Source: Myxococcales bacterium (GTDB lineage Bacteria > Myxococcota > UBA727 > VGSZ01). Taken from it: a DNA stretch of 57,430 nt. Under the pieces are notes generated by a model. The model made no database searches. It was given only the letters and a program-made list of their open reading frames with translations, and was not told the origin of the DNA. The position numbers and the translations under genes were made by a program. Positions 6,827-57,021 of the stretch are shown one piece after another. The first letter of the stretch is position 1. Every line of letters begins with the position of its first letter. The stretch lies in NCBI GenBank assembly GCA_023248635.1, contig JAHFED010000032.1, positions 7,501 through 64,930 on the forward strand, written 5' to 3'.

Positions 6827-6883
6827 TTCAAGACGCTGGCGTGTCTTGAAGAGAAGAATTTCAAGACACACCAGCGTCTTGAA
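6827..6883. repeat. Nested inverted repeat (two 24-bp palindrome-like arms)
   Basis: Arm 1 (6827-6850) and arm 2 (6860-6883) are reverse complements with a single mismatch, separated by nine bases. Each arm also begins ttcaagac and ends gtcttgaa, so each is itself a palindrome. The stretch from 6730 to 7414 holds no convincing gene; this element is its most ordered part. Confidence 0.85.
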
Positions 6884-55299: not shown

Positions 55300-55668
55300 T
55301 CAGCAACGATTGCGCGTCGAAGAACGACTTCTGGCCGGCGCGCGATCTCGCAACGAATGCAGCGCGTAGCCACGCTCGGCCCCATAGGTGAAGGGATCCT
55401 CGGTCTCGTAGAGGCTGTAGGACGCGTGCGGTTCCCAAACCAGGTGGCCGTCGTCGAGCCGTCGCACCTGATCGTCGGCGCGCCGGGTCCCACCGCCGCG
55501 ACGCTCGTGCTCCGTCGGCGCTTCTTTGCCCTCCGGCGGGGCGCCCAAATCCTCGTCGTCGTCGACCCAACCGTGCTCGCGGGTCGTGCGGGTGTCGTGG
55601 CTTTCGTCTCTGAGCCCCATTTCTGGGTTGGGAAAAATTCCTGGTGTTTCGGAGGATGGGTACTGCAT
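55300..55668 (-). CDS. Small acidic hypothetical protein
   Basis: A 122-residue hydrophilic protein with an acidic centre (GWVDDDEDLGAPPEGKEAPT) followed by a conserved-looking aromatic patch (VWEPHASYSLYETEDPFTYG) and a basic end (ARSRSSTRNRC). ATG 55668 has ggag seven bases upstream. Its start MQYPSSETPG resembles in style the start of the neighbouring BON protein, so the two may be related in regulation. No family recognised. A longer frame upstream runs through repeats and is not used. Confidence 0.55.
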   Translation of the reverse strand: MQYPSSETPGIFPNPEMGLRDESHDTRTTREHGWVDDDEDLGAPPEGKEAPTEHERRGGGTRRADDQVRRLDDGHLVWEPHASYSLYETEDPFTYGAERGYALHSLRDRAPARSRSSTRNRC

Positions 55669-55814
55669 GACTTGCTCCAACCACGGGGCAGCTGCAGGCG
55701 CAGATGCCCGTGACCCAGCCCAGAATGCAGGGTCGGTGCCAGCAGGGCCTTGCATGCGGGAGCGAAAGCACCGGGAGCCGCTGGGGAGAAACGCCACGCT
55801 GGGGCAGAATGCAC

Positions 55815-55908
55815 CGCCGCCAGGCGATGAACCTGTGGACAATTCATCGCCGCCAGGCGATGAACCTGTAGACAATTCACCGACACGCGAAGCACCTGTC
55901 GGTGAATT
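55815..55908. repeat. 33-bp tandem repeat with overlapping stem-loop
   Basis: Copies at 55815-55847 and 55848-55879 (cgccgccaggcgatgaacct then gt(g/a)gacaattca) are followed by a degenerate third copy. aattcaccgaca (55874-55885) and tgtcggtgaatt (55897-55908) form a perfect 12-bp stem with an 11-base loop. It lies in the 318-bp gap between the BON gene end and the 55300 gene start; nothing else was recognised there. Confidence 0.82.
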
Positions 55909-55986: not shown

Positions 55987-57021
55987 CTACTGCTTGGACT
56001 TGCGATCCACGCGGGCGGCGTCGTCAGCGACGCGCTCGGCGGAGCCATTCCGGCCTCGACCAGGTTCAGTGATCGCCTTTACACGCAAGTGATTGTTTAT
56101 TTCATGTACTCCAAATACACGATCACAACACTGTTCGATGGTGTATTTCATCATGCGCTCCGGCACCGAACCGCTGAGCATGACTTCGCCGTCTTTGACG
56201 TCGACCTCGACGTTGCTGGCGTCGATGTCGAGGGAGGCGATGCGGTCGCAGACATCCTCTTTGATGCGCTCGTCGGAGCGTTTGTAGCCCTTGGGTCCCC
56301 GTCCCATCCGAGGGCGCGTGCCGACGCCACGAGCTGCCTCGAAGCGGCTGGGCTCGAAGCGTCCGAGGTCGAAGGGGGCGAGCTCGCCGCGCCCGAGTTG
56401 CTCAAAGGGGGCTTCAAAACGCCCCTCGTCGAAGCGACCCATGGCGTAGCCGAAATTCTCTGCCCTCAGGCCGCGCGGCCAATGGGCCGCCCGGCCTGAG
56501 GGCAGAGAATGCCCCGACTCGAAGCGGGGCTGTTCGAAGCGACCCTGGTCCATGCGCCGATCGTAGGCGGTGCTCTGGTCGTAGCCCATGGACCCCTCGG
56601 GTCGGCTTTCATAGCCCAGGCGACCCTCGAAACGGCCCTGGTCGTAGCCTGAACGACCCTCGAAGCGACCCGGCTCGTCGCCGGGGCGACCCTCGAAGCG
56701 GCCTTGGTCGTAGCGACCCTCAAAGCGCCCTCCGTCGGGGCGACCCCAGAAACGGGGCACGCGCGGTCGGGCCATCTCGGGTCGCATCTCGACCTCCGGC
56801 ATCTCATCAGCGGTAAAGCGCTGCGAGCCCATCATCGGGCGGCGGTAGGCGCCGCGTTCGTCACTTGGCAGGTTCGAGCCTTCGTAGTCGCGGGCTTCGC
56901 GATCCCCGCCACCCTCGTCCATCCAGCCTCGATCGCGGCTGCTGCGGCTGTCTTGTTCGCTGCCGAGTGGAAGCGGATCATTGCGGAAATGGCGGTTGGT
57001 CTCGTAGTGACGTTGTTGCAT
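55987..57021 (-). CDS. BON-domain protein with RFEG repeats
   Basis: A 344-residue hydrophilic protein without a signal peptide. Residues about 1-260 are low-complexity with repeated GRFEGR, DQGRFEGR and PRFES-type units, rich in Gly, Arg, Phe and Glu. Residues about 262-325 form a BON domain: RIKEDVCDRIASLDIDASNV, EVDVKDGEVMLSGSVPERMM, VFGVHEINNHLRV. BON domains bind membranes or other proteins in stress and envelope maintenance. Residues near 171-188 come from a palindromic element. ggagtgattt precedes ATG 57021. The longer frame to 57336 lacks homology. Confidence 0.78.
   Translation of the reverse strand: MQQRHYETNRHFRNDPLPLGSEQDSRSSRDRGWMDEGGGDREARDYEGSNLPSDERGAYRRPMMGSQRFTADEMPEVEMRPEMARPRVPRFWGRPDGGRFEGRYDQGRFEGRPGDEPGRFEGRSGYDQGRFEGRLGYESRPEGSMGYDQSTAYDRRMDQGRFEQPRFESGHSLPSGRAAHWPRGLRAENFGYAMGRFDEGRFEAPFEQLGRGELAPFDLGRFEPSRFEAARGVGTRPRMGRGPKGYKRSDERIKEDVCDRIASLDIDASNVEVDVKDGEVMLSGSVPERMMKYTIEQCCDRVFGVHEINNHLRVKAITEPGRGRNGSAERVADDAARVDRKSKQ
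56456..56509. repeat. 54-bp palindromic element inside the BON-domain gene
   Basis: Two 25-base arms (56456-56480 and 56485-56509), complementary except for one mismatch, flank the loop aatg. The 54 bases are exactly 18 codons and keep the reading frame. The encoded peptide (HSLPSGRAAHWPRGLRAEN) breaks the surrounding RFEG-type repeats, indicating insertion. Confidence 0.9.

Follow-up and report, generated by a model that had tools for sequence, protein, structure and literature searches.

A 27-nucleotide repeat unit within protein genes of an uncultured lake myxobacterium

Tiny selfish DNA that inserts in frame into protein genes is best known from Rickettsia and Wolbachia. Chains of small repeats are reportedly found in Nostoc, where the SDR elements attributed to Elhai et al. 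in 2008 are said to be units of 20–30 nt that form families with a common fold, use a fixed short palindromic target, and nest and chain. One further report places SDR5 in HIP1 (PMC4390886). The RPE of Rickettsia and their Wolbachia counterpart form in-frame fusions with many protein genes, occur also between genes, and are apparently tolerated rather than useful; RPE measure 105–146 bp and carry terminal inverted repeats (PMC2229807). The REPs tagged by GTAG or CGTC are hairpins of 20–40 bp with stems that vary by family; they are often species-specific, and some are intragenic, including copies reported within DnaE2 and UvrD/REP helicase genes (PMC3733652). The repeat described here is from the 6.5-Mb draft genome of a myxobacterium (GCA_023248635.1) that is probably free-living. 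The window is the whole 57,430-nt stretch of contig JAHFED010000032.1 that was analyzed.

A paired unit in a BON-domain gene

One protein of the window (344 aa), with a BON domain (PF04972, residues 249–315, E 5.5e-14) in its C-terminal part, is encoded by a gene that contains a palindrome (Table 1). A sequence-only reading had described a nearly perfect inverted repeat with 25-bp arms and a 4-base loop, spanning exactly 18 codons in frame and interrupting an RFEG pattern. A repeat search of the window confirms this, with arms of 26 nt (56455–56480 and 56485–56510) that are 96% complementary and flank the 4-nt loop AATG. The stretch 56456–56509 is exactly 54 nt (18 codons of the minus strand), the coding score is positive on either flank, and an RFEG/RFEQ-type repeat is split by the insert. 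Perfect-stem length is uninformative for this palindrome because of its one mismatch; thus, arm length with one mismatch allowed was used instead. The longest such arm is 26 nt, compared to a maximum of 16 nt when the window is shuffled 60 times by an order-3 Markov model, by which a chance palindrome is rejected. The region is low-complexity and repetitive, as an origin in ordinary protein sequence or chance would have it; this origin is hardly credible, as it is refuted by copies throughout the genome, where the 23-nt core of the repeat lies on dozens of contigs and is often identical.

The palindrome consists of two abutting copies, in opposite orientation, of a 27-nt unit, A (TTCTCTGCCCTCAGGCCGGGCGGCCAA). 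When A copies and the bases around them are aligned, a sharply bounded unit emerges, AATT-CTCTGCCCTCAGGCCGGGCGGCC-AATT, in which a 27-nt TT-core-AA lies between AA and TT. The AA before copy 1 in the BON gene accordingly forms an AATT at 56454–56457. In the genome-wide search of the arms that the sequence-only reading had proposed, copies are abundant: when up to 3 mismatches are allowed, the 17-nt arm is matched 210 times in the draft genome versus 15 times for the reversed control, and the A-containing 28-mer TCTCTGCCCTCAGGCCGGGCGGCCAATT has 86 matches in the source genome and 0 in 96 relatives, two of them of the same genus. The opposite outcome, with no further copy and the same peptide in all orthologues, did not occur.

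While the suggestion of a REP/MITE-like mobile palindrome of this lineage stands as to a dispersed, lineage-confined repeat family, it fails as to the mobile unit, since the 54 nt consist of two units of 27 nt each, and the REP features tested for A, tag and RAYT, are absent. The whole palindrome was rejected as the repeat unit, nearly all copies being A units that are single or head-to-tail. Within a sample of about 820 kb, comprising the window and stretches of up to 20 kb fetched around A copies, no clean inverted pair of A occurs other than that of the window, and a degenerate one lies at a second locus (L078). The minus strand of the palindrome folds into a single hairpin (-56.9 kcal/mol, z -9.8), whereas A alone folds no better than shuffles (z -0.3). 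The inverted ends of A hold nothing beyond TT/AA.

A BON orthologue was searched for in 18 relatives and none was found; a paralogue on C31 has only the BON part in common. Empty sites were therefore looked for in other genes. Rfam families have no match in the window or in four loci. The insert is most likely without function for the BON protein. Beside the BON gene, a short ORF (55303–55683) has a motif in common with the N-terminal part of the BON protein (TREHGWVDDDED and SRDRGWMDEGG), which suggests a partial duplication.

Table 1. Repeat units and the BON-domain gene in the window.
Feature	Position	Strand	Remarks
Unit A, copy 1	56456..56482	+	TT-core-AA, 27 nt; 1 mismatch to consensus
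Unit A, copy 2	56483..56509	-	Inverted, abuts copy 1; 1 mismatch, TG for TT at 56483-56484
BON-domain gene	55990..57021	-	Two A units in frame; peptide about HSLPSGRAAHWPRGLRAEN
B-B-C chain	55810..55905	+	Gapless, intergenic; directly downstream of BON gene
Degenerate A-like stretch	55522..55548	+	4 mismatches; in neighbouring short ORF; may be a chance match
Two inverted D-family hairpins	6827..6883		TTCAAGACGC stem; intergenic; second family of the same set

Companion families and AATT junctions

The 820-kb sample, chosen around A copies of the draft genome, defines further families: (i) B (TTCATCGCCGCCAGGCGATGAACCTGTAGACAA, 33 nt), (ii) C (TTCACCGACACGCGAAGCGCTGTCGGTGAA, 30 nt), (iii) D (TTCAAGACGCGCCAGCGTCTTGAA, repeating at about 33–34 nt), and (iv) E (TTTGCGCCGTGCCAACGGCGCAAA) with its compensated variant e (stem TTTGAGCCGT), at a repeat spacing of about 34–35 nt. 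A GCCA loop is common to B, D, E and e despite their different stems, and is found in 120 of the 237 perfect hairpins with a stem of at least 9, almost all on four stems. Genome-wide pattern matches number 459 for D and 250 for B, with at most 4 in any relative, and no hairpin stem is seen more than once in samples of 180–380 kb from each of three same-genus or same-family relatives. Exact matches to A are absent from other species in the genome_contigs collection, and exact matches to A, D or the B-C linker are absent from IMG/VR, on which ground spread by viruses was rejected.

Other repeats accompany these families. At one locus (L085:16058-16702), 18 E hairpins lie in tandem at a spacing of about 35 nt, and elsewhere E and D form arrays of 3–12 units. 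A longer repeat, family F (at least 100 nt), has several hairpins (GGGAGGTCTGGTGCAGACCTCCC ... CAACTCCGCGTTCCGCGGGC) and 21 copies in the 820-kb sample (e.g., L054 at about 590 and L052 at about 5372). Blocks of CTTCGCC/CCTCGCC/CTCCTTC, which code for Glu-Gly, form minisatellite-like runs that are common in the source genome and its relatives (samples of G000–G003).

The sister genome G001, an uncultured member of the Myxococcales of the same genus (CAJBHN01), has a few B-like hairpins. Two are composites of B and C whose linker is almost unchanged and whose stems differ (e.g., TTCATCGGC-GCCA-GCCGATGAA then CGTGTAGACAATTCACCGACATGGGCGGAGCCCGTGTCGGTGAATT), and others read TTCATCACC-GCCA-GGTGATGAA. 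The B-C linker is matched 144 times in the source genome and once in G001, and 193 further Myxococcota lack it. Stem changes among B copies of the source genome are mostly single and uncompensated, those of B in G001 are compensatory, and E differs from e by compensatory changes. The loop and the pairing are kept while stems change, so a folded strand is probably what is recognized in B, D and E, and the fold may be needed for spreading rather than for a role of individual copies. In G001, the TTCATCACC-GCCA hairpin also lies within a longer common sequence at two loci (L194 at about 230 and L196 at about 8841; GCCGACGTACGCGAA...CTCACCCG...GAAGCAATG...CGGCACGGCGTCTTCGCGCC), which is perhaps a larger element bearing the hairpin.

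Hairpin stems kept as folds would also be expected of remnants spread by reverse transcription, and the genome has a single retron-like reverse transcriptase (RT) gene (best PADLOC match RT_XIII, E 2e-143) with a D-like hairpin about 0.3 kb upstream of the RT frame. The RT locus is, however, devoid of A, B, C or E units, and the copy number of D is high enough for one nearby copy to be a matter of chance. The retron RT was rejected as the source, as no connection in sequence ties it to A, B or C, and such an origin is quite unlikely. The RT itself (500 aa; L293, contig C11 of G000, RT match 75544-76155) lies amid direct repeats, each some hundreds of bases long and carrying the hairpin AGGTCGACGCAACATCGACCT (three copies); these are possibly repeated retron RNA genes.

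The units A, B and C are joined at AATT. In all, 116 pairs of neighbouring A, B or C units, arranged and oriented in many different ways, have a gap of exactly 0. At chain edges, AA lies outside an intact terminal TT in 104 of 157 cases (66%), compared to 2.2% before other TTs in the same DNA. AATT on either side of A fits a target duplication, but some perfect-core copies have non-AATT flanks, of which the left often differs from the right; thus, the preference for AATT is not absolute, and duplication of a 4-bp target is unproven. Insertion into AATT would be the simplest account of the junctions. A TT-core-AA unit that entered AA^TT would leave an AATT at each of its ends, where a further unit could then enter, whatever its family or orientation, leading to chains. 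In the BON gene, one A may have entered the low-complexity RFEG region, followed by a second, inverted A at the border of the first.

Copies within protein genes

A home-made hexamer model of coding DNA places 30 of 76 A copies (about 40%; 37 in a looser count) in predicted coding sequence. The corresponding figures for B (10/75), C (7/58), D (6/84) and E (1/74) are possibly biased, as the sample was chosen around A. Unit A is open in five of its six frames (readings FSALRPGGQ, SLPSGRAA, LCPQAGRP, LAARPEGRE and WPPGLRAEN) and adds 27 nt, so it would be tolerated in linkers and loops. Several in-frame copies have coding flanks, in line with the earlier comparison to RPE: other genes besides the BON gene carry in-frame members of the family.

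In DnaE2, the insert LCPQAGRP lies within the HHH_6 domain and is missing in 17 of 17 aligned orthologues. In a UvrD-like helicase, FSALRPGGQ immediately precedes Phe-Arg-Pro, and several orthologues have Phe-Arg-Pro without the insert; thus, the TT on the Phe-Arg-Pro side appears older than the insert. Both loops vary in length in other species anyway, and absence from these orthologues is therefore not equal to an exact empty site at the DNA level. A 20-kb comparison with same-genus genomes, which are too diverged at the copies, revealed no DNA-level empty site, and no polymorphism was seen. In kinase proteins, A copies lie outside recognized domains. As in RPE, the repeat is in frame in several protein genes and missing from orthologues.

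Cores that are often identical over 23 nt, and copies in coding DNA, might also mark a dispersed protein-binding or uptake-signal site under selection; the inverted arrangement in the BON gene would then be coincidental. Against this, what orthologues show is the absence of an entire 9-aa block, not point changes, the units form chains with those of other families through precise AATT junctions, and A has no match in the same genus. Such a site is very unlikely, and insertion of the unit remains the preferred reading.

Relation to known mobile repeats

These families resemble REPs in size, copy number and lineage specificity, in the variation of their stems and in having copies within genes (PMC3733652), and the presence of A in DnaE2 and UvrD-like helicase genes is a notable parallel. 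A tagged REP/REPIN family moved by a RAYT transposase, with the palindrome as a REPIN-like inverted pair, is nevertheless unlikely. The A consensus has neither a GTAG nor a CGTC tag, and a profile search for RAYT (Y1_Tnp, PF01797) gives no match in the draft genome, which is 96.7% complete; thus, with both tag and RAYT tested, A does not belong to the tagged REPs. Inverted A pairs are exceptional, and there is no clear 3'-end bias between genes, the shares of A–D in tandem, convergent and divergent gene gaps being close to background (small numbers, home-made gene calls). A GTAG does occur in B, in the tail 3' of its own hairpin and adjacent to no hairpin. By contrast to REPs, what stays constant in B, D and E is the GCCA loop, and A, B and C are joined at AATT without a spacer.

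Compared by description, A resembles RPE in its in-frame presence in genes. It differs in being 27 nt and not self-complementary beyond chance, compared to 105–146 bp with terminal inverted repeats, and it belongs to another phylum; chaining at AATT is not reported for RPE (PMC2229807). As to MITEs, A has no inverted ends beyond TT/AA, and no parent element was found for it. The likeness to SDR elements is one of organization, not sequence: tiny units, families with a common fold, a short target and chains. Here, however, the target would be AATT rather than HIP1, much of A is in coding sequence, and the phylum is unrelated.

The 54-bp palindrome is, thus, probably two inverted, abutting copies of a non-autonomous, lineage-specific insertion unit of 27 nt that enters AATT and is mobilized by a putative enzyme acting in trans. 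A wider and more tentative reading is that of a set of self-propagating micro-elements of 27–35 nt that have one putative enzyme in common, insert at AATT so as to recreate the target, and form chains of unrelated units. The lengths of A, B and C (27, 33 and 30) are multiples of three, which would let A especially spread in genes. If this is true, these micro-elements are among the smallest known mobile DNAs. The in-frame elements here are 27-nt units of an uncultured lake myxobacterium, have a visible target rule, and belong to a set that is nearly absent from the sister species; they thus offer a way to test how gene-less DNA moves and how it gives proteins extra peptides.
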